Assembly (NCBI GenBank): GCA_902787185.1
Contig: CADAFP010000012.1
Coordinates: forward strand, 26,469 to 90,468
Length of the DNA: 64,000 nt
From: an uncultured Bacteroidales bacterium
GTDB lineage: Bacteria > Bacteroidota > Bacteroidia > Bacteroidales > Muribaculaceae
Direction of reading: 5' to 3'
Shown here: positions 1-10,940 of the stretch, piece after piece
Layout: each line of letters begins with the position of its first letter
How positions within the stretch are numbered: position 1 is the stretch's first letter
Position numbers and translations under genes: made by a program
The notes under the pieces: model-generated
The model's input: only the letters and a program-made list of their open reading frames with translations
What the model was told of the DNA's origin: nothing
Databases searched by the model: none

Positions 1-1960
1 TCCGTTTCAATCCACGCACCCGCGAGGGGTGCGACACGTCGAGTTTGTCCGCGTTCATCTGATCCCAGACGTTTCAATCCACGCACCCGCGAGGGGTGCG
101 ACCCTCCACACCATTGACATCAATCGTGGCCACCTCCATGTTTCAATCCACGCACCCGCGAGGGGTGCGACCGTCCTGGACTGGATGAGGTGCAGCGTTT
201 GAGATGTTTCAATCCACGCACCCGCGAGGGGTGCGACGCTTTGGTGCAAAGGTACCACGGCAGCCAATGAGGCGTTTCAATCCACGCACCCGCGAGGGGT
301 GCGACAGAGGAGTTTGAACAGCTGAAGCAAGAATTGTTGTTTCAATCCACGCACCCGCGAGGGGTGCGACATCAACAACCAGTCCAGCCACAGTGAGATT
401 AAGGTTTCAATCCACGCACCCGCGAGGGGTGCGACTTCGCCAAGTCGCGCAGTCCGCTATCCTTCAAGGTTTCAATCCACGCACCCGCGAGGGGTGCGAC
501 CAATGGCGACAACAACGCTCCACCACGGGCACTGTGTTTCAATCCACGCACCCGCGAGGGGTGCGACATGCCGTTGATCCAATAGTAGTTACTGTATCAG
601 GTTTCAATCCACGCACCCGCGAGGGGTGCGACCATGTTACCACATTTCTCAAGATAAACCATAGACGGTTTCAATCCACGCACCCGCGAGGGGTGCGACC
701 CAGACCAGGAACAATTATCTGTCATGGCTCGGGTTTCAATCCACGCACCCGCGAGGGGTGCGACCAAAAACTCATGCGTAAGATGAAACGTGAGGGCAGT
801 TTCAATCCACGCACCCGCGAGGGGTGCGACTTATTAAAAAGCTAGGTTTACCTGATACATATTGAGTTTCAATCCACGCACCCGCGAGGGGTGCGACGCA
901 AGGAGTTTAGGAATTAAAAGGATAACATTTAAGTTTCAATCCACGCACCCGCGAGGGGTGCGACCCTGTGGAGGGCGGCGAGCTTGAGGACGTGTATGTG
1001 TTTCAATCCACGCACCCGCGAGGGGTGCGACATATGGTTTATAAAACTGACGACAATGGAAACGAGTTTCAATCCACGCACCCGCGAGGGGTGCGACCGT
1101 GACCTGTTGCTGCAATTTTCGTACTTAGGTGTTTCAATCCACGCACCCGCGAGGGGTGCGACAATGCCCAGTTACGTAACATTGACGCTGATACGGTTTC
1201 AATCCACGCACCCGCGAGGGGTGCGACATTTCAACCCGTTGACCCTCACAATCACCCTGATTATGTTTCAATCCACGCACCCGCGAGGGGTGCGACGACT
1301 TGCCCATATCTGCGAACATACCTGCGACTGTTTCAATCCACGCACCCGCGAGGGGTGCGACAAAATTTCACAAACAAAAACAAAAAATGAGTAAAGTTTC
1401 AATCCACGCACCCGCGAGGGGTGCGACAACTCCCGCAGAGTTGTCTATCACGGCATTTCTTGAGTTTCAATCCACGCACCCGCGAGGGGTGCGACGCATT
1501 GCTTTTTCGTAAATGGCATCAATCTCGTTGTTTCAATCCACGCACCCGCGAGGGGTGCGACACGTTGATGGACGCATTCACTTGGTGTCTCTATGGTTTC
1601 AATCCACGCACCCGCGAGGGGTGCGACAAAGGAACGCTCTATGGCAAAACTGGAGGCTTTAAGTTTCAATCCACGCACCCGCGAGGGGTGCGACTTCTTT
1701 CTTATTCTTGATTTGTGAGGCCTCAAGAGTTTCAATCCACGCACCCGCGAGGGGTGCGACTTTTACTTCGTGTCTGCCGTGGCAGCAGCGCGGTGTTTCA
1801 ATCCACGCACCCGCGAGGGGTGCGACACGTCCAGAGCGCAGCACGTCAAGCACTCTACAAGTTTCAATCCACGCACCCGCGAGGGGTGCGACACACAGCA
1901 GCGCATTACCGGCAATGTGGTCCTCGGGGTTTCAATCCACGCACCCGCGAGGGGTGCGAC
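1..1960 (-). CRISPR. Type I-C CRISPR array, 30 repeats visible, continues past left edge
   Basis: Thirty 32-bp repeats lie between 4-35 and 1929-1960, with 29 complete spacers of 33-37 bp. Every repeat copy looks identical. Read on the minus strand the repeat starts GTCGCACCCC and ends GGATTGAAAC, the known type I-C (Cas5-processed) form; it folds as CGCACCC/GGGTGCG with a five-base loop. The cas genes lie to the right on the minus strand, so the leader-proximal (newest) repeat is 1929-1960 and the oldest spacers are cut off at base 1. Because no terminal degenerate repeat is seen, the array is longer than shown. I saw no duplicated spacers by eye. Spacer targets cannot be told from the sequence alone. 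Confidence 0.98.
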
Positions 1961-2423: not shown

Positions 2424-3458
2424 TTACTGTACTAAAAAAACAGGGTAATTATCTAAATCTCCACGCAGAAAACGAGCCATTAGCATCGCTTGAATATACG
2501 GTAACAATCCAATTGGAACGCTTTCTTTGATAAATGGATGCATCATCGTGTCTTTTTTTCTTTTTTGCCATGACGCAAGCACCGTTTTCTTGCAGCCATC
2601 ATTCATGATAATGTTTTCTGCTCCATTTTCAACAAAATCTTCAGCTTCTACTTGTTTGCGGTTAATGAGAGACAAGACAAATCTATCGGCCATGTATGCT
2701 CTCAATTCTTCCATCATGTCAAGTGCCAATCCTGCACGGCCAGGTCTATCTGTATGAAGGAAGCCAACATAGGGATCCAGCCCCACAGTTTCGAGTGCAG
2801 ATTGCATTTCATGAGCTAATAATGTGTAGACAAATGAAAGCAAACAATTCGTACGGTCTCTCGGCGGTCTCCGGTTTCTACCAATAAATGTGAAAGCAGG
2901 TTTTTGCGCGACAATCATGTCATCAAATATTGAGAAATAATTTACGGCGGCATCACCCTCAACGCCACGCAACTCATTCGCAGATTCGGTATTCATTGCC
3001 TGGCGCATATTCACTTTCAGGATATTTGAGATGCTTTCAACCCGTGAGAGTTCTTCAGTAGATGAAACATGGTCTCTCTTAAATCGTTCAACTATTTTGC
3101 GCGAGTTGTGTATTTTCCCTCTAATCATAATTTTGCTGATTAGTAGTGCTTTATCCTTATCATCCGCCAACCGATATTGCTTACGCCGCAATAAAACATT
3201 GCCATTGGTTCCACCAGTCACCCGTGCCAAAAAACGTCCGCTCGAAGTTAAGAAGCAAAGGCCTATATTGTGCTCAGCGCACATAGCCATCAAGTACTTG
3301 GATGCCCCCAAGTTATTAAAGCACACAATACTCTCAAGGTTAAGAGCAGGAAGCCTCATCACTTCACGATTCTCAATTTTTGCGACAACGTTATCGCCAT
3401 CCTTTGACAAAAAGACATCAGGATTTGTCACGTACAGGGTATTCAGTAATTTCCTCAT
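2424..3458 (-). CDS. cas1: CRISPR-associated endonuclease/integrase Cas1 (type I-C)
   Basis: Integrase of the adaptation complex, which inserts new spacers at the leader end. Using the start at 3458 it has 344 residues and begins MRKLLNTLYV. This start overlaps the cas4 stop as ATGA (3455-3458), suggesting translational coupling. The frame is open upstream to 3524, but those 22 residues would lie over cas4 and are not typical of the family. The likely metal ligands are E167 (in VEGDAA), H235 (in GFLHTD) and D247 with E250 (in LALDMMEELR), matching the Cas1 E/H/D triad. It sits between cas4 and cas2, as in all I-C operons. Confidence 0.97.
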   Translation of the reverse strand: MRKLLNTLYVTNPDVFLSKDGDNVVAKIENREVMRLPALNLESIVCFNNLGASKYLMAMCAEHNIGLCFLTSSGRFLARVTGGTNGNVLLRRKQYRLADDKDKALLISKIMIRGKIHNSRKIVERFKRDHVSSTEELSRVESISNILKVNMRQAMNTESANELRGVEGDAAVNYFSIFDDMIVAQKPAFTFIGRNRRPPRDRTNCLLSFVYTLLAHEMQSALETVGLDPYVGFLHTDRPGRAGLALDMMEELRAYMADRFVLSLINRKQVEAEDFVENGAENIIMNDGCKKTVLASWQKRKKDTMMHPFIKESVPIGLLPYIQAMLMARFLRGDLDNYPVFLVQ

Positions 3459-4126
3459 TCTACATCCATTTGTTTTAAATAGTGATTTACGCTCATTGCT
3501 CTTTTCATTGAGTTCACGAAACACTTATCTTTCAATGAGCATGAACGACAATAGCTGTGATACTCTGCTTGTGGAGTAATTCCTGCATCAAACAGTTCAT
3601 GCATTACAGCCGAGTAGTACCTTACTTGTTCACGCAATTTATTCGAGAAGGTTACTGGGATGCGCCTTCTAATAGATTCATAGAAAAAGGCTCCTTCTTG
3701 AATACTAATTGTGTACATTTCTTCAAGACACAAAGCCTGAGCACACAGTTGAACCTCATCAACTTCGTCATGCTTGGGCTTGCCGTGTTTGTACTCAATT
3801 GGATAAACAGTCCATCTACCAGGATACTTAGGAACCTCAATAGTGTTTTCTTCATTCTCGGCAGCAGTGAGTTCAAGTAAATCAGCAATCCCGCTGAAAC
3901 CAAGCTCATGAGAAACGAGCGCAACAGAACGCAGGTGTACCACGTTCTTGTTGCGCTCTATAGCACGAGAATTATCTACCTTGCGATGAAGCCAACGTCC
4001 CTCGACAGTCAAGTGGTTTTCTTCCCATTGCTGTTCAATGTGAATCAGTCCCCACTGCCGTGGACAAAAAGCGAAATGTTGAATTCCTGACAACATCAGC
4101 AGGTCGTCATCCTCATAATATGCCAT
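3455..4126 (-). CDS. cas4: CRISPR-associated exonuclease Cas4 (type I-C)
   Basis: A 223-residue RecB-like iron-sulphur nuclease. Cas4 trims prespacers and helps choose PAM-bearing ends before Cas1-Cas2 integration. Four cysteines fit the 4Fe-4S cluster: C21 (in FCPRQW) and C193, C196 and C202 near the C terminus (CRSCSLKDKC). The PIEYKHGKPK stretch is the conserved E/K part of the PD-(D/E)XK fold. Its stop overlaps the cas1 start by 4 bp, and it follows cas7 by 11 bp. The gene is complete, with no missing ligand. Confidence 0.96.
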   Translation of the reverse strand: MAYYEDDDLLMLSGIQHFAFCPRQWGLIHIEQQWEENHLTVEGRWLHRKVDNSRAIERNKNVVHLRSVALVSHELGFSGIADLLELTAAENEENTIEVPKYPGRWTVYPIEYKHGKPKHDEVDEVQLCAQALCLEEMYTISIQEGAFFYESIRRRIPVTFSNKLREQVRYYSAVMHELFDAGITPQAEYHSYCRSCSLKDKCFVNSMKRAMSVNHYLKQMDVE

Positions 4127-4137
4127 GCCCTCGCTTG

Positions 4138-4986
4138 TTAGATAAGTTCCTCAACCTTTACGCCAGTAGGCAGATGCTCTTTGTCGATGGTCACGGCGTA
4201 GTCTACAAATGAGCGGGCTGGCTTAGACTTGTCCTTTAACTCTATCTTGACAAGGTCAAAGAGTTTGTTGGCAGGGGCGTTGCCCAATACCGAGTCATGC
4301 TTGAAGGCAATCAAGCGCTGGGCACTCATCATGCCACGTGCTGCTGAACGGTCAACATCAAACATGTTCTTCAATGCGTCAAAGAAAAGGTCAAGGTCTT
4401 CCTCACTGAAACCCGTCTGCTGCGCTAAGTTGGCAGAAATAAAGCCGTGGCAAACATAGAGACCATAAGGAACAGTTGCCTTACGGCCCATGGTGCGTTC
4501 TTTCTCAAGATCGGCCTCCTTCGTAACGGCCATACGTGTAATCGAGTGTTCAAGAGTTGCAACAGGGTCAATAGAACGTGCAAAGGTCATCTGGATTGGG
4601 CCTCTCACTTGATCTTGTTTACCACTAGTGGCAATCACTGCGCCAAATGTGCGAATATCATAAAAATTACGACACATGACTTTTTTTGCAACTGCCCTTC
4701 GTTCATCTTGCGGAGCTTGTGTTATTTCGGATAAATCATAAGTCTGATTAACAATACTATCAAGCACGGCTTTCTCCTTGATGAAGATGTCATAGCCAGG
4801 AGCAAGTTGCTTGGCAACCTGCACATAGTTGCGAACTTTGCGCTTGAGGCAAACGTCGGTCACAAGACCCATACCAGTTTCGGCATCCACTCGGGGCAGG
4901 TTTCCTGCATCGGGGTCACCATTGGGATTACCATCCTGCACATCAAAAATGTACACAAAATCGATTCTGTTCTTTAATTCTAACAT
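4138..4986 (-). CDS. cas7: Cascade backbone protein Cas7 (Csd2, type I-C)
   Basis: A 282-residue backbone subunit that polymerises along the crRNA spacer in the I-C Cascade. The N terminus carries the hallmark DGNPNGDPDAGNLPRVD segment of Csd2/Csh2-type Cas7 proteins; typical Csd2 length is about 280-290 residues. It lies 12 bp downstream of cas8c and 11 bp upstream of cas4, so it is in the same transcript. Nothing in it looks damaged. Confidence 0.97.
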   Translation of the reverse strand: MLELKNRIDFVYIFDVQDGNPNGDPDAGNLPRVDAETGMGLVTDVCLKRKVRNYVQVAKQLAPGYDIFIKEKAVLDSIVNQTYDLSEITQAPQDERRAVAKKVMCRNFYDIRTFGAVIATSGKQDQVRGPIQMTFARSIDPVATLEHSITRMAVTKEADLEKERTMGRKATVPYGLYVCHGFISANLAQQTGFSEEDLDLFFDALKNMFDVDRSAARGMMSAQRLIAFKHDSVLGNAPANKLFDLVKIELKDKSKPARSFVDYAVTIDKEHLPTGVKVEELI

Positions 4987-4998
4987 AGTTGTAAAGTA

Positions 4999-5370
4999 TT
5001 ATTGGTTATTGTTGTTTTCTTCTTTCTCATTCTTGGTGAAAAACGCCTGACGCTGGTGATAGAAACCGACGAAAAAGCGGCCCTGATCTTGAAGGTCGAG
5101 ATGGGCAGGGAAACCATCAGCGTCAATCTTGTCGATAATCTCCTGCTTGAGTTGATCAAAAAAGACATTTCTTCCCTCATTCAGTTTCTCGGAATGATGA
5201 GACGAGAGATTAAGAATTGTGGCAAACACGGCAGAGGGCGTCGCACTTGCTGAATTCATGTACCGTTCACGAATGGTGTGCTGATTGTTTGCGTCCTCTT
5301 GAATCTTGTCAAGCACAGCAAACAAGCGGCCACACAGATAACCTGGATTGGTGTTGTTCTTGTCTAACAT
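4999..5370 (-). CDS. cas11c: Putative Cas11c small subunit by internal translation of cas8c
   Basis: An in-frame ATG at 5370-5368 inside cas8c would give a 123-residue protein starting MLDKNNTNPGYLCG, nearly the length of the known Cas11c made by internal initiation in Desulfovibrio vulgaris I-C. The bases before this ATG (GAACAAAATATAAAAGTT) are A/T-rich, resembling the purine- and A-rich initiation regions that replace Shine-Dalgarno sites in Bacteroidetes. The length match and position are seen; internal initiation is inferred from other I-C systems. Confidence 0.6.
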   Translation of the reverse strand: MLDKNNTNPGYLCGRLFAVLDKIQEDANNQHTIRERYMNSASATPSAVFATILNLSSHHSEKLNEGRNVFFDQLKQEIIDKIDADGFPAHLDLQDQGRFFVGFYHQRQAFFTKNEKEENNNNQ

Positions 5371-6699
5371 AACTTTTATATTTTGTTCATTAATATTGTT
5401 GAGTCTATTTAAATATGCCTTGATAATCGCAGCACGGGTCGTATAGATGCTTTGTTCCGCCCTAATGCGTCTGATGCATTCGGCAAACAAAGTATAAGGA
5501 TAAGGAATACCTTGAAAAATGCTCTTGACTAATGCATCGGGCAAATTGGGAGTCGCATCAGAAGCCTTGCCACCTAAAGTGACAGCGCCCAAGATAGAGC
5601 GTAATGCCATGTATGGTTTGTTTGCTCCCGTAATCTCCATATCTTCAAAATGGCGATTGATGCGCTCGGCAAATTCCTTCAATGGGATTTCTGCCCAATA
5701 AACAACGGCGATTCGCGCGGCATTAGGTGCCAACCCCAGGATATAGAACTTGTCATCAAGTGAGGTATTCAACTCTCCTGAGTAAATGGCTTTGAACACT
5801 TTTCTCACCTGCTCAATTTTGGCATTAGGGTCATCGTCTTCAGCATCAGAGAAACCAAAAATATCAAAGATGCTCTCCTCAGTTTTTCTTCCAGCCTCAT
5901 CATCGTTGGATGCCCAGAAAACAAAGGTACGACTGCCAATTTGAAACTTATTTCGCGAGTTTCTGTCTAGCATATGATTCAGGGCCGTTGAGTAGGCAAA
6001 TTCCGCTTCTTCACTCACAGGGGCGTTTATGCCTTGTGAATGACCATAAGAGTCATAGCCCTTCCCGTCCTTAAACGAGACAAGTGAAGTAAACTTATTT
6101 CCCTGAAGAGGAATTTTTGAATGCAATCTAGCGGTAGCACCTTTGACGCCAGTCACCAGACACACATGAGCTTCGCCATTTCCAATTTGATGACTTGAGT
6201 AACGGATAACATCGTCATCAGCTGCAGCAATAGTTGTATTCCCTTGCAACAAGAAAGAGATATTCTTTTTAGAACCCACCATTTCTTGCCACAGAGCGTC
6301 ACGTTCAACAACTTTCTGTATATTAGGATATCTATTATAAAAAGCACGGATAGCTTCAACGGTCAGATTGCCAGGAAGATGTCCTTTCAATTCTTCCACC
6401 CGCTGCACAAACGCATCTTTACAGTGTCTTGCTTTATCCATATTGGTCGCTGAATACCCTATCACATAATCACAGTTGTCCCAAAGGAAATTCGCTACAA
6501 ACTTTCTTCCTGAACGTGGTACAGTTTGACTGACCAGATAACGTGTTGCTATTTGATTGTCTATCATTCGGCTCTCGAGACGTAAAAAAGTACCATCTTT
6601 ATCAATAACAATCAAATATCCAATTTCTTTGAGTTCGGTACCCATTAATGGCAAATCCGAACTCCTGTGATAATAATCATATAGTGCTTTGAGTATCAT
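4999..6699 (-). CDS. cas8c: Cascade large subunit Cas8c (Csd1, type I-C)
   Basis: A 566-residue large subunit that recognises the PAM and recruits Cas3. The N terminus MILKALYDYYHRSSDLPLMG and overall length match Csd1. The start codon overlaps the cas5 stop as ATGA (6696-6699). In studied I-C systems the last part of cas8c is also translated separately as the small subunit Cas11c; a matching internal start is listed at 4999-5370. The C terminus is asparagine-rich (ENNNNQ), a likely disordered tail. The gene is intact. Confidence 0.96.
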   Translation of the reverse strand: MILKALYDYYHRSSDLPLMGTELKEIGYLIVIDKDGTFLRLESRMIDNQIATRYLVSQTVPRSGRKFVANFLWDNCDYVIGYSATNMDKARHCKDAFVQRVEELKGHLPGNLTVEAIRAFYNRYPNIQKVVERDALWQEMVGSKKNISFLLQGNTTIAAADDDVIRYSSHQIGNGEAHVCLVTGVKGATARLHSKIPLQGNKFTSLVSFKDGKGYDSYGHSQGINAPVSEEAEFAYSTALNHMLDRNSRNKFQIGSRTFVFWASNDDEAGRKTEESIFDIFGFSDAEDDDPNAKIEQVRKVFKAIYSGELNTSLDDKFYILGLAPNAARIAVVYWAEIPLKEFAERINRHFEDMEITGANKPYMALRSILGAVTLGGKASDATPNLPDALVKSIFQGIPYPYTLFAECIRRIRAEQSIYTTRAAIIKAYLNRLNNINEQNIKVMLDKNNTNPGYLCGRLFAVLDKIQEDANNQHTIRERYMNSASATPSAVFATILNLSSHHSEKLNEGRNVFFDQLKQEIIDKIDADGFPAHLDLQDQGRFFVGFYHQRQAFFTKNEKEENNNNQ

Positions 6700-7391
6700 T
6701 TCAACACCTCCTCACTGTCTCTTGGTGGAACATTAATCACTCCATTTTCCATGATGGCATGATAGAACATGGCATCGGGCTTATTCACATTCCCATCAAA
6801 GTCTATATCGTAAAGCATCAAGCCCAAATCACGACTGTCGTTGTAGGGTGCGCTCAATTCCTCTTGTTCGGGATTTATAAGGCGGAATGACGCCGAGCAC
6901 TCCCGGGTGCCGAGATAAGGCTGGTTAAAGCATTGCCCTTTACTTGCCCTACGCTCAAACATCGCATTGTACTTGCCAGGGTTCTCATCCTTGCGCAAGA
7001 AATCTTTTTCCTCCTTGTCAATCAATGGATTCTTGCTCTCGGCACGCTTGCTGACAGGGATAAATTCAAGTTTAGCCCAAATGCGGTAGCGCACATCCTG
7101 CAACATCAAGGTGTTCTTTTGCTGTCTCTTCTCCTCAATGAAAACAGGCTTGGATGCGACAGCACCCACCTCGTTGCGACGGATTGATGTCCACTTGATG
7201 GGATTGAGCACTTCAATTTTGGTCACCTGCCATCTGATGGCTGGTTTCCAAAAGATAGCCTCAAAGATGGCTCGTGCAGCCGATGGCGTGATGACATCAT
7301 AGCTCACACGCTCCACCTTGAGTTCTGGTCGGGTAAAGCAGGCGATTGGCCCCCATACCTCCAAGCAAAATTCTTTATCAAAATGTTCCAT
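6696..7391 (-). CDS. cas5: crRNA-processing Cas5 (Cas5d/Cas5c, type I-C)
   Basis: A 231-residue Cas5 of the I-C type, starting MEHFDKEFCLEVWGPIACFT. In I-C systems, which lack Cas6, Cas5 cuts the pre-crRNA at each repeat hairpin and stays bound to the 5' handle. The PSAARAIFEAIFWKP segment and the C-terminal half (RDLGLMLYDIDF) are typical. No cas6 is present, which agrees with this role. It overlaps cas8c by 4 bp and starts 7 bp after cas3. I did not map the catalytic residues with certainty. Confidence 0.96.
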   Translation of the reverse strand: MEHFDKEFCLEVWGPIACFTRPELKVERVSYDVITPSAARAIFEAIFWKPAIRWQVTKIEVLNPIKWTSIRRNEVGAVASKPVFIEEKRQQKNTLMLQDVRYRIWAKLEFIPVSKRAESKNPLIDKEEKDFLRKDENPGKYNAMFERRASKGQCFNQPYLGTRECSASFRLINPEQEELSAPYNDSRDLGLMLYDIDFDGNVNKPDAMFYHAIMENGVINVPPRDSEEVLK

Positions 7392-7398
7392 ATCGATA

Positions 7399-9576
7399 TT
7401 ATATGATTAATGTTTCTTCTAACCATTGGTTGTCGGTGATTAAGCCGACCTTATCATCATAGAGTGACTCTTTAGAGAGTACCCAAATGCCATTTATTTC
7501 TTCCAATGCCCCTGCATCGTTCAGTGTCTGGAAATCTTTCTTCCTCACACTGACGGCATATTGTGACAATTTCTTCAAAAGAGGATAGGAAGGTTCACTG
7601 CGCTTGAGTTCTTCAACAAGTGCTCTACCGCCATCACGCTGAATGAAAATGCTTGTGGTATCATCATCAATCAAGTGGAATTGGGCGGCAGCTTCCTGGA
7701 ATTGCATTTCAGTTGGTTTATAAAGCAATTGTCCAATTTGATTCTTGTCAAAACTCTCAGTCCTTGAAAACAGTTGGGCAAAATAGTCACGCATCGTCTC
7801 AGGCGCGAACCAATCAAATGCACCCACCATATTGAGTCGAGCATTATTGGCTTGAGAGATATAGCCTGGTGGCAATCGATGCTCACAGCGCAGACTGAAA
7901 ACATGAGTTGTGCAAATGCCTCGTCTGCCCTCGCGGTTGCAACGACCAGCCGCTTGCAAGACGGAATCAAGCCCAGCCTCTTGACGATAAACGACAGGAA
8001 AATCAATATCCACACCCGCCTCAATCAGTTGTGTAGCCACCACACGGATAATCGGTTGATTATCGTCCTTAAGTGCTGCCTTAATTGTCTCGATGGTCTC
8101 ACGCACATGAGCGGGATACATCATGCGAGACAAGTGCAGGGTCAAGCCTTCCTGGGTCAAGCGTTCAAACAGTTCTTTGGCATCCCTGCGGGTGTTCACA
8201 ATACACAACACCCGATCATGCTGAGCGATTTGCCGTGCAACTTCATCATAGGTTTGAGGAGCGTTGTTGATATCAAGTTCCACCCGTCGCAACTTGTCAT
8301 GCAAGCGGGCATCGGCCGGTATGATTTCATGGACATGTGGCAACGCTTTAAATTGGTTTAATCTGTTTGTGCCCCTTATAGTGCCATCAAGAATGGGTTG
8401 GCTTGCTGTTGTGAACAGGAATGATGTGCCAAAGACATTCTTCAACGACTTGAACGTGTTGATGATGGGTTGCAAGAATTCCAGTGGCAACGTCTGCACC
8501 TCATCAAGAATCACCACACTTTTGGCGATATTGTGCAATTTGCGGCATTGTGACGGCTTGTTGCTGAACAAGGATTCAAAGAAGCGCACGTTAGTCGTCA
8601 CCACTATGGGGTAATCCCAGTTTTCGGTTGCAAGTTGAAGTTGCTTGGTGATTTCTTTATTTCCCTCGTCATCATATTCAACATTGGAGTGGTGCTCCAA
8701 CACATTTTCTTCACCAAAAATCGCTTTCAGCGTCGCGGCGGTTTGGACGATGATACTGGTATAAGGGATTGCGATAATGATGCGTTGCAGGTCATTTTTC
8801 ACCGCATGACGCAATGCCCACAACAGCGAGGACAGCGTTTTGCCGCCACCCGTGGGAACCGTGAGGCTGTAGTAATCAATATCACCGTTGCTTTGCTCCT
8901 TACAGCACTGCTGGACATATCGCCTGATGCGGTTGACCTCGGTGTCAGGGGCGCTCTCATTCAGCTTATCAAGATGCGCTTCAAGCTTTGAGCACAACTC
9001 CTTCATACTCGTTTTTGTGCCGCGCAGACGATTCTGCTCAGGCATCATGAACGCCTCAGTATCTAAATAATCGGCATCCACAAGGCAGCTAAAGAGCATC
9101 CTCACCAAGTGATGCATATCCTCTTTGGAAAGCGGTGTTGAGGGGGCTTTCAGTTGTCCGGTTATTGAGGGAATGGTCACCTCGGCAGGAATGTCTTGTT
9201 TCAACAACTCTATCCATTCGCCATCGTTATAGAGACCACGATGATGCCCCATAATGATATTTGACAGTATTGGTGTTGCTGGCCTAAAAAGCCGATGAGC
9301 AACAAGACCTCCCACATAGGCATGACTGAAATCGCCCTCAACCTTCACATCTGGACAATAACCACTCTCTTTCTTGATATGCTGCTGGAATGACTGTCGC
9401 TCTTTTCCGATATCATGCAATAGACCAAGCACCCTGCCCCACTCGCCCATTCCAAAGGCATCGGCAAATCTTGATGCCAACTCAGCGACACCTCGCTGAT
9501 GATCCTCATTGGATTGAATCGACCAATTCCCGGTTGACCCTTTGATGTGTGATATGATAACTTCTATACTTTTCAT
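7399..9576 (-). CDS. cas3: CRISPR-associated helicase/nuclease Cas3 (type I-C)
   Basis: A 725-residue effector nuclease-helicase that unwinds and degrades DNA opened by Cascade. The N-terminal HD nuclease shows H54-D55 (LLHDIGK), H85 and H111-H112 (GHHRG). The SF2 helicase part shows Walker A at about 241-248 (PTGGGKTLSS), Walker B DEVQ at about 358-361, a QLIEAGVDIDFP motif and the QAAGRCNREG arginine-finger motif. It is the first gene of the operon; all later genes are 12 bp or less apart, or overlap. A good Bacteroidetes promoter lies 42 bp upstream. All catalytic motifs are present, so interference should be functional. Confidence 0.97.
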   Translation of the reverse strand: MKSIEVIISHIKGSTGNWSIQSNEDHQRGVAELASRFADAFGMGEWGRVLGLLHDIGKERQSFQQHIKKESGYCPDVKVEGDFSHAYVGGLVAHRLFRPATPILSNIIMGHHRGLYNDGEWIELLKQDIPAEVTIPSITGQLKAPSTPLSKEDMHHLVRMLFSCLVDADYLDTEAFMMPEQNRLRGTKTSMKELCSKLEAHLDKLNESAPDTEVNRIRRYVQQCCKEQSNGDIDYYSLTVPTGGGKTLSSLLWALRHAVKNDLQRIIIAIPYTSIIVQTAATLKAIFGEENVLEHHSNVEYDDEGNKEITKQLQLATENWDYPIVVTTNVRFFESLFSNKPSQCRKLHNIAKSVVILDEVQTLPLEFLQPIINTFKSLKNVFGTSFLFTTASQPILDGTIRGTNRLNQFKALPHVHEIIPADARLHDKLRRVELDINNAPQTYDEVARQIAQHDRVLCIVNTRRDAKELFERLTQEGLTLHLSRMMYPAHVRETIETIKAALKDDNQPIIRVVATQLIEAGVDIDFPVVYRQEAGLDSVLQAAGRCNREGRRGICTTHVFSLRCEHRLPPGYISQANNARLNMVGAFDWFAPETMRDYFAQLFSRTESFDKNQIGQLLYKPTEMQFQEAAAQFHLIDDDTTSIFIQRDGGRALVEELKRSEPSYPLLKKLSQYAVSVRKKDFQTLNDAGALEEINGIWVLSKESLYDDKVGLITDNQWLEETLII

Positions 9577-9617
9577 TGTATTTGTAATTATTAGGCATCA
9601 TTCACTATTTGATAACG

Positions 9618-9649
9618 CAAAGTTAGTTGTTTGCGCCATTAATCCCAAA
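9618..9649 (-). promoter_or_regulatory. Promoter of the I-C cas operon
   Basis: On the minus strand TTTG (9649-9646), 20 bases and TAACTTTG (9625-9618) match the Bacteroidetes consensus TTTG-N19/20-TAnnTTTG. The start should fall near 9612, giving a leader of about 35 bases before the cas3 ATG at 9576. It is the only strong promoter I see for the seven-gene operon. Confidence 0.75.
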
Positions 9650-9767
9650 TAAAGTTATTGACACCTTATTTCTTGCAAAATAAACACATAGGAGTGTCAA
9701 ATCTTGGCACTGCTGATTTATTTTTTGTTAATTGTGCTTTTTATGCCTGTCTTTCCCCTGTAATAAC

Positions 9768-9875
9768 TTGACAGATTTGAGAGCGATTAACTAAGTTGGT
9801 TTACACTCATTTTATCGTTCGCCTAAACTGGGTTGACAGTTTGGCGGTTTTATCACTGATTGGGTTTACAGCTCT
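9768..9875. repeat. Imperfect 65-bp-spaced direct repeat
   Basis: TTGACAG at 9768 and 9833 and GGTTTACA at 9798 and 9863 recur with the same 65-bp offset, and the bases between are loosely similar. The offset equals the repeat-plus-spacer period of the neighbouring Cas12a-type array (65-66 bp). No Cas12a handle is visible here, so this may be very old array sequence or an unrelated duplication. Confidence 0.4.
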
Positions 9876-9923
9876 ACGGGCAAAGTGACCATGACCACAG
9901 ACCCCGGTCAACGACAAAATGCA

Positions 9924-10091
9924 AAATCCAATAGTAGAAATTCTTAGGGTCTTCTAGACAACTGGTGCGTGATTGAATCTCACAATACTTTCTACAATTA
10001 TAGAAATTTGAGTAGTCACTTAGACATGATGCAACCGATAACGGTTGCATTGAGATCTACAATAGTAGAAATTATTTGGGTCTTATAGAAC
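9924..10091 (-). CRISPR. Three-repeat type V-A (Cas12a) mini-array, partly decayed
   Basis: Read on the minus strand, 10091-10055 is an intact Cas12a-type repeat. It begins GTTCTATAAGACCC and ends AATTTCTACTATTGTAGAT, the handle stem-loop (TCTAC/GTAGA) known from Cas12a crRNAs. A second copy (10025-9990) ends AATTTCTATAATTGTAGAA, and a third (9959-9924) has AATTTCTACTATTG followed by a broken loop. The cores CAATAGTAGAAATT, CAATTATAGAAATT and CAATAGTAGAAATT start at 9929, 9995 and 10060, a 65-66-bp period that leaves spacers of about 29-30 bp, normal for V-A. Decay grows away from 10091, so the leader end is on the right. No cas12a, cas1, cas2 or cas4 of V-A type lies in this window. This is either a relic or a stand-alone guide locus. 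Confidence 0.85.
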
Positions 10092-10379
10092 GAGCCTGAG
10101 GCTCGCAATAGATTGACAACTGCCTCGTGTGAATGGGGGTTCCTCGCTTCTCTTTGTCGCCTGATTGACAGGGGGATACTCAAATGGCCGCCCTTTGGGC
10201 GTCTGCCACCACTCGCTATATTCCGAGACTCAACAAAATTTGGTGCGGTTGCCCTGCAAAAAGGGCGGGGAATCTTGGATATGTCGATTTTTTTGTGTAG
10301 TTTTGTGGTGTCCTTGTGTGGTCTAATGGATAGACAGATTAATAGCAAGGTTGTTTTAACGGTTAAAAATCAGAGCATT
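10092..10379. other. Leader side of V-A mini-array; no gene seen
   Basis: This 288-bp stretch lies on the leader side of the mini-array and upstream of the next gene. A small dyad GAGCC/GGCTC (10092-10104) abuts the intact repeat. The frame of the following gene is open here from 10113, but the translation is rich in Cys, Arg and Pro and does not look like protein. Minus-strand frames also look random. It may hold the mini-array promoter, which I cannot pinpoint. Confidence 0.4.
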
Positions 10380-10940
10380 ATGAAACCCGAAGACCATTTC
10401 GACGAGAATCATGTCCCTACCGAGGAGGATTTCGCCCCCGGGCAGGTCGATGAGAAAGAAGAGTCGCGCAAGTTCATCAAGAAGAGCTGCCGTGCCCATA
10501 GCGTCTTTTACATCATTATGGGCATCATATTTCTTATGAACGGCATTATCAATATCGACAGTGTGAGCGACAGCAAACTGTACCAGTGCCCGCTCATTGC
10601 CTTGATGCTGGTGTCGGCCATCGCCATGGGCTTTTATGCCCTCATCTATGAGAGAATCCGCCGAGCCTCGACAGCGAGGGAGATGAAGAAGTTCACCGAT
10701 CTGACGAGCGCCAATACCCTGTTTTCGAAACTCATCCTCATCACCATGACGCTATGCATTATCGTCGCCGCTGTTTTAGGGCTGATTGACAAGACCTCTT
10801 GGTATGTCATCGTGCTGGCTGTTATTGTCATCGGCGCACTTATTGGCGGGCTGTGGTGGCTCATCAAGGACTCAGACAAGAAAGATGCCTGCGATATCGA
10901 AATCGAGAAATTACTGGCCCTGGAAGAGGGAGAAAACTAA
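10380..10940 (+). CDS. Small four-helix membrane protein, function unknown
   Basis: A 186-residue protein I do not recognise. I chose ATG 10380 (MKPEDHFDENHVPTEEDF) because an A/T-rich initiation region precedes it and the longer frame from 10113 is not protein-like. The first 50 residues are acidic and soluble. Four hydrophobic helices follow: about 51-70 (VFYIIMGIIFLMNG), 80-100, 122-143 and 150-170 (VIVLAVIVIGALIGGLWWLI). The C terminus is charged and probably cytoplasmic. It is alone on the plus strand between the CRISPR region and a secreted protein gene. Nothing ties it to CRISPR except position. Confidence 0.75.
   Translation: MKPEDHFDENHVPTEEDFAPGQVDEKEESRKFIKKSCRAHSVFYIIMGIIFLMNGIINIDSVSDSKLYQCPLIALMLVSAIAMGFYALIYERIRRASTAREMKKFTDLTSANTLFSKLILITMTLCIIVAAVLGLIDKTSWYVIVLAVIVIGALIGGLWWLIKDSDKKDACDIEIEKLLALEEGEN

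Follow-up and report, generated by a model that had tools for sequence, protein, structure and literature searches.

A V-A mini-array beside a type I-C block

The window, a stretch of 64,000 nucleotides from an uncultured Bacteroidales bacterium, contains a type I-C CRISPR-Cas system and, on the same strand as its cas3-cas5-cas8-cas7-cas4-cas1 genes, a mini-array of another type (Table 1). The mini-array consists of three repeats with the Cas12a (type V-A) handle, separated by two intervals of spacer length. An earlier note on this DNA had placed it directly upstream of the I-C operon, in the same orientation. The orientation agrees with that of the Pfam-confirmed cas genes, all on the minus strand. 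"Directly upstream" is misleading, as two elements intervene, a weakened copy of a promoter (9872-9930) and an interspersed repeat roughly 125 bp long (9748-9875), and the distance to the cas3 start (9576), given in the earlier note as 275-515 bp, is about 350-515 bp.

Table 1. Features of the mini-array and its surroundings (positions in the window).
Feature	Positions	Strand	Remarks
I-C array, leader-proximal part	1..1960	-	88 repeats in all; leaves the window leftward, to about C12:22,640 on the source contig
cas5, cas8c (Csd1), cas7, cas4, cas1 (type I-C)	2424..7391	-	Pfam
cas3 (type I-C)	7399..9576	-	Pfam Cas3 C-terminal, DEAD and HD domains
Likely cas3 promoter	9618..9648	-	TTG-N20-TAACTTTG, read from 9648 to 9618; by the Bacteroidetes consensus
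Interspersed repeat of the genus	9748..9875	.	about 125 bp; MITE-like by analogy
Promoter-like 59-bp copy	9872..9930	-	matches C12:22441-22499, past the distal end of the I-C array, at 88% identity; -7 box degraded
V-A repeat R3	9926..9959	-	last in array orientation; 2-nt deletion breaks handle stem
Spacer 2	9960..9989	-	30 nt; protospacer search without result
V-A repeat R2	9990..10025	-	36 nt, decayed; 3 core mismatches; handle stem pairable in fold
"Spacer 1"	10026..10054	-	29 nt, mostly a 9-bp hairpin, from sequence
22-nt inverted repeat	10029..10050	.	ATGCAACCG-ATAA-CGGTTGCAT (plus strand); 18-bp core 10031-10048
V-A repeat R1	10055..10091	-	37 nt; intact 19-nt Cas12a handle, 0 mismatches in core; handle folds
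Right-flank gene	10380..10940	+	DUF1129, below Pfam cut-off; left-flank gene nearby in 6/6 relatives inspected

Our promoter scans used the Bacteroidetes consensus. By its match to that consensus, cas3 likely carries its own promoter, and a likely promoter for the right-flank gene was found at 10275 on the plus strand. Of the two 59-bp promoter copies, the one beyond the I-C array follows the consensus strictly, and the one beside the mini-array is degraded.

The interspersed element, which adjoins the V-A unit, has the ends TGTCTTTC...GTTTACAGC, and its copies often lie at contig ends (e.g., L059:8485-8608). We had assumed an insertion-sequence end at 9747-9875 from these contig-end matches, and dropped it: because the L059 copy sits between two ORFs, one of them RecA-like by reading, MITE-like is the better label by analogy. 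The element also occurs upstream of the I-C cas3 genes of two other genomes of the genus, at the same distance in G343, where the contig ends inside the repeat, and truncated in G283, and is possibly how the I-C block moves. It accounts for most of the matches that a 536-base intergenic query found in 36 of the 101 genus genomes (own included). Near the far end of the I-C array, about 44 bp (L020:2535-2578) belong to another genus-wide interspersed repeat with many matches.

To the sides of the I-C block and mini-array are a left-flank gene that is lipoprotein-like by reading and the right-flank gene, which had a match in 15 other genomes. In all six relatives inspected among these, the two flank genes are 175-1750 bp apart, with gaps long enough for another gene in two (L123 and L126). 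The V-A core, the I-C repeat, the 18-bp dyad described below and the promoter copy are absent from all six gaps at the mismatch limits used. The I-C block and the mini-array are therefore an insert between host genes. Among the ORFs typed, we recognised no phage or plasmid genes in the insert. For the mini-array stretch, the phage collection yielded nothing, and plasmids a single 22-base match (E 0.6).

Repeat identity and the search for cas12a

Read from 10091 to 9926 on the minus strand, the repeat cores lie at 10055-10073, 9990-10008 and 9924-9942. They are spaced 65 and 66 bp apart, which upholds the period reported in the earlier note and falls in the range of V-A arrays of the genus (62-70 bp). 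No other V-A core occurs in the window at up to three mismatches. As 0.02 cores are expected per window (mean of 100 shuffles) and three were never reached in any shuffle, a chance match is ruled out.

The cores of R1, R2 and R3 differ from AATTTCTACTATTGTAGAT at 0, 3 and 3 positions when counted by substitution, and a 2-nt deletion is the better reading of R3. The UCUAC-loop-GUAGA handle is exact in R1, pairable in R2, where a C-to-T change leaves a G-U pair and a foldable stem, and broken in R3, whose stem lacks 2 nt. R1 had been called intact to the base; this holds for its 19-nt handle, whereas the whole unit, at 37 nt, is one longer than the 36-nt repeats of V-A arrays of the genus. Likewise, the other two repeats are decayed as claimed, except that the handle stem of R2 can still fold. 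With one 30-nt copy as reference, the remaining two of the three repeats show 63% and 90% identity; because the repeats are not near-identical, as those of a V-A array would be, we term the mini-array a relict. The break in R3, the last repeat in array orientation, lies at its 3' end, where terminal CRISPR repeats are often broken. Genus arrays offer parallels: the last copy is altered in L016, and in L056 an altered partial copy comes after the last one listed.

The repeats differ from each other more densely in the 5' half (13/51 positions) than in the handle (5/57; Fisher p = 0.036), a weak difference because the counting was manual and its reference was a consensus drawn from these very repeats. 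It would fit selection on the handle. This, the intact R1 handle and the pairable R2 stem count against the relict reading. Ahead of R1 we found no V-A leader (best E 0.70), and Rfam had no match over 9500-10500.

We compared the repeats with V-A systems of the same genus. A search with the TIGR04330 profile identified cas12a in 4 of 101 genomes. In three of these (G303, G341 and G346), arrays of 20, 16 and 11 listed repeats (up to three mismatches), each beside cas12a, carry the identical 19-nt core in 36-nt repeats that mostly start with GTCTAAT. Those of G341 and G346 also have the GTC...GAC 5' half in common with the mini-array. In the fourth genome, G173, the loop of the V-A array is different. 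Unlike the genus arrays, the mini-array has three unequal repeats and no cas12a match in its assembly.

The source assembly (G000; 80.86% complete, 102 contigs) had no TIGR04330 match, in line with the earlier statement that the window holds no cas12a. The profile was also silent in 14 of 14 named control genomes; the genus search serves as the positive control because none of these rang. When four Cas12a proteins of the genus were compared with the contig by tblastn, chance-level matches alone were obtained (best E 0.56), with no cas12a fragment. An assembly that is 81% complete could lack a cas12a that the genome encodes.

A search of the assembly for the same repeat found the core once at up to one mismatch, and elsewhere its 18-nt version is met only at three mismatches, at one site each on contigs C1, C13, C30 and C40. 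In a family sample of 297 genomes, the core was found at up to one mismatch in four (G000, G181, G217 and G246), and the control pattern had no occurrence among the matches listed. An unrelated interspersed repeat, the alternative raised in the earlier note, is rejected, as the assembly has no other copy of the V-A unit at fewer than three mismatches.

Taken together, the mini-array is likely a relict orphan V-A array: what would be left of the V-A locus are three repeats with two intervals of spacer length, and the assembly has no cas12a to go with them. This reading is one of the two that the earlier note had offered. The analysis shows the identity and spacing of the repeats, the V-A arrays of the genus, the absence of a cas12a match from the assembly and the anatomy of the insert. 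The unequal repeats, the broken end of R3, the lack of a Bacteroidetes-type promoter ahead of R1 and a V-A relict beside another CRISPR type in G217 (below) also favour the relict reading. That cas12a was lost and that the mini-array is inactive, as well as the order of events, we infer. The mini-array would ride on, or have been left beside, the ~14-kb I-C block between two divergently oriented host genes. It would most likely be without current guide function; if it were transcribed and if a Cas12a arrived, R1 could yield an RNA that Cas12a can bind. As a relict V-A array near an I-C system, the mini-array is ordinary in kind. We met no such arrangement in the published literature, which is weak evidence.

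A hairpin in spacer 1 with a second copy past the I-C array

The first spacer-length interval is unusual. Among the 63,971 overlapping 29-mers of the window, 63, spacer 1's included, contain a hairpin of at least 8 bp with a loop of 3-6 nt, and R1 together with spacer 1 folds with z = -5.82. The 18-bp core of the dyad (GCRACCGATAACGGTYGC) occurs exactly twice in the 3.2-Mb assembly, and both occurrences flank the I-C block. The second lies at C12:22613-22630 (L020:2613-2630), 9 nt past the leader-distal I-C repeat. A single compensatory difference separates the two dyad copies, in which G-C is exchanged for A-T on either side of the stem, and the 59-bp promoter copies lie 100 and 113 bp from them, on the same side of each.

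These findings raise the possibility that the functional element is not CRISPR-derived: the pair of hairpin and promoter at both block ends could act as a dyad that binds a protein, or as a signal for processing or for a boundary, with the V-A repeats as bystanders or part of a recombination scar. The exact repetition of the dyad at the two ends, the paired stem change and the matching promoter copies (88% identical) count in favour of this alternative. However, the stretches between promoter and dyad align no better than shuffles, either as a whole (-21, equalled or bettered by 486 of 500 shuffles, whose mean was -10.4) or over their first 45 nt (-10.5 versus -14.4; 89 of 500), and we dropped the homology of these stretches. 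As proof of common origin the promoter copy loses weight because, in G299, the promoter region of an unrelated gene matches it at 78%. Nor is the hairpin a common element, since among the genus genomes the exact copy is found in the source assembly alone. At up to one mismatch there are nine matches, spread over 8 of the 101 genomes of the genus with the source counted, so that the seven others are no richer than the reversed control with its ten. At up to three mismatches, 15 matches in the source assembly compare with 29 for the reversed control, and for this reason we count exact dyad matches only. Exact matches in six viral stretches are near chance by a rough estimate. We regard a non-CRISPR element as unlikely.

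The combination of dyad and promoter copy may mean that both array ends are of shared origin, or the two ends may share a protein-binding or RNA signal. A further idea joins the two kinds of element into a control device across types, in which R1, its hairpin and the matching hairpin at the I-C end coordinate, insulate or mark the ends of the I-C locus and were kept after loss of the V-A effector; this we hold to be very improbable indeed. Decay of an ordinary array does not explain the spacer 1 hairpin or its counterpart past the I-C array, which counts against the relict reading; as a structure common to both block ends the hairpin is a concrete, testable oddity.

Guide, decoy and stand-alone handles

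The earlier note had also proposed a retained guide that represses the I-C promoter, and had suggested aligning the spacers to the cas3 promoter, prophages and plasmids. On the 90-kb contig, which includes the cas3 promoter, neither spacer has a seed of at least 7 nt after a T-rich PAM. With any PAM, the best match of spacer 1 on the contig besides its own site is 20/29, and spacer 2 has no match of 19 or more. Phage records gave weak matches only (E 0.6 or worse), and thus no phage source; viral contigs contain no exact copy of a 22-nt core of spacer 2.

Such a guide would resemble the CreR mini-CRISPRs, which have been described for types V-A, I-B and I-E as Crna-like units near a cas operon, as here, including CreR RNAs that guide autorepression by V-A Cas (reviews PMC13131331 and PMC12737573). 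The mini-array would then yield an RNA that resembles a V-A crRNA and is complementary in part to a cas promoter, through which a Cas12a from the unassembled part of the genome represses near the I-C operon. The intact handle of R1 and the incompleteness of the genome leave room for this, and spacer 2 has a 16-nt stretch in common with 9512-9527 (81%, 9 nt exact). However, that site belongs to the first part of the cas3 coding sequence and not to the promoter, and short families of two copies are often chance, as which we take this similarity. PAM-adjacent complementarity to a promoter is absent from the contig that holds the I-C operon, no Bacteroidetes-type promoter (TTG-N17-22-TANNTTTG, the type scanned) precedes R1 in 10,092-10,500 on the minus strand, and no cognate Cas12a matches in the assembly. 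In addition, the CreRs described so far in those reviews act on their own cas promoter, whereas the adjoining operon here is of another type.

The other I-C loci of the genus do not repeat the arrangement. There are 13 other strong I-C cas3 matches, and at the 12 loci scanned (L148 was left out) no V-A core occurs at up to three mismatches in the available sequence, which can end early at contig edges. Conversely, among 108 loci with V-A cores elsewhere, no I-C cas genes were found beside the core at E 1e-5, distant cas1 matches excepted. A live guide at this locus is thus very improbable in our judgement; if it were true, the mini-array would give RNAs of 40-45 nt starting at AAUUUCUAC.

Alternatively, the RNA could mimic a V-A repeat and tie up an incoming or resident Cas12a, as a solitary-repeat decoy does. 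Such Racrs are already in print for type V-A: PMC10651486 reports three that inhibited a V-A system, and the units it describes combine a V-A handle away from cas12a with subsequent RNA structure, as seen in R1 and the strong hairpin after it. Stand-alone V-A cores are real, as an exact 20-nt core occurs in 21 viral stretches, compared with three for the reversed control; several of the 21 are nearly the same, and 15 have distinct flanks. However, unlike a solitary repeat, which has no partner within 100 bp, the mini-array has three spaced repeats within 168 bp, and it lies in a chromosomal insert with no recognised phage or plasmid gene and with only the marginal plasmid match given above. 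No Bacteroidetes-type promoter was found close upstream, and no intrinsic terminator up to 120 nt downstream of the R1 core. Moreover, PMC10651486 reports a matching host cas operon for 82.9% of 170 prophage solitary repeats, whereas the present assembly has no Cas12a match. We consider a decoy improbable. Neither a guide nor a decoy function of the mini-array is supported, and the relict reading remains the preferred one.

In the genome collection, the exact core occurs in at least 118 stretches, of which 80 were listed. Among the matches listed, 37 stretches have a single match, and 28 of these were tested for cas12a, leaving out L200 (the L196 contig), L214 (the L207 MAG), L229 (an array), L262 and L263. 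cas12a was above the cut-off in 8 of the 28 genomes, on the same locus as the core in two (L234 and L240), and 20 were without, one of which had a sub-threshold fragment. All six positive controls rang, four of them being single-match stretches themselves. In L202 there appear to be over three 19-nt cores. Given the 20 of 28 genomes without cas12a above the cut-off and the viral copies, stand-alone V-A handles are thus not rare.

Terminators were found downstream of 6 of 41 stand-alone cores, as against 1, 1, 1 and 0 of 41 in four control placements, a weak excess in a count that left out 15 loci with short or duplicate flanks. L166, L173, L176, L201, L212 and L239 have a hairpin resembling an intrinsic terminator within 120 nt after the core, as a short decoy RNA would have.

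Two genomes of the family sample illustrate how V-A remnants can lie. G217, which belongs to the genus of the source, carries a one-mismatch handle followed by a 29-nt spacer and half a repeat, at some 29 bp from where a 27-repeat array accompanied by cas9-like and cas1 genes ends (L017:7828-9623). Orphan and decayed arrays are a record of CRISPR type turnover at one site; V-A relicts at other CRISPR loci, here and in G217, would fit systems that replace one another at shared sites.

G181 has an orphan V-A mini-array like that of the source, with two exact handle cores 65 bp apart (L015:5009-5092) and no cas12a above the cut-off in the genome; a TIGR04330 match below it (E 7e-4, 17 bits) was dismissed as chance on reading the locus. 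It differs in lying upstream of a gene that is ABC-transporter-like by reading, with no array of another type on its 5.2-kb contig. The locus has the same length and match positions as CAMEGQ010000131.1, and its spacer contains, by eye, a 6-bp hairpin.
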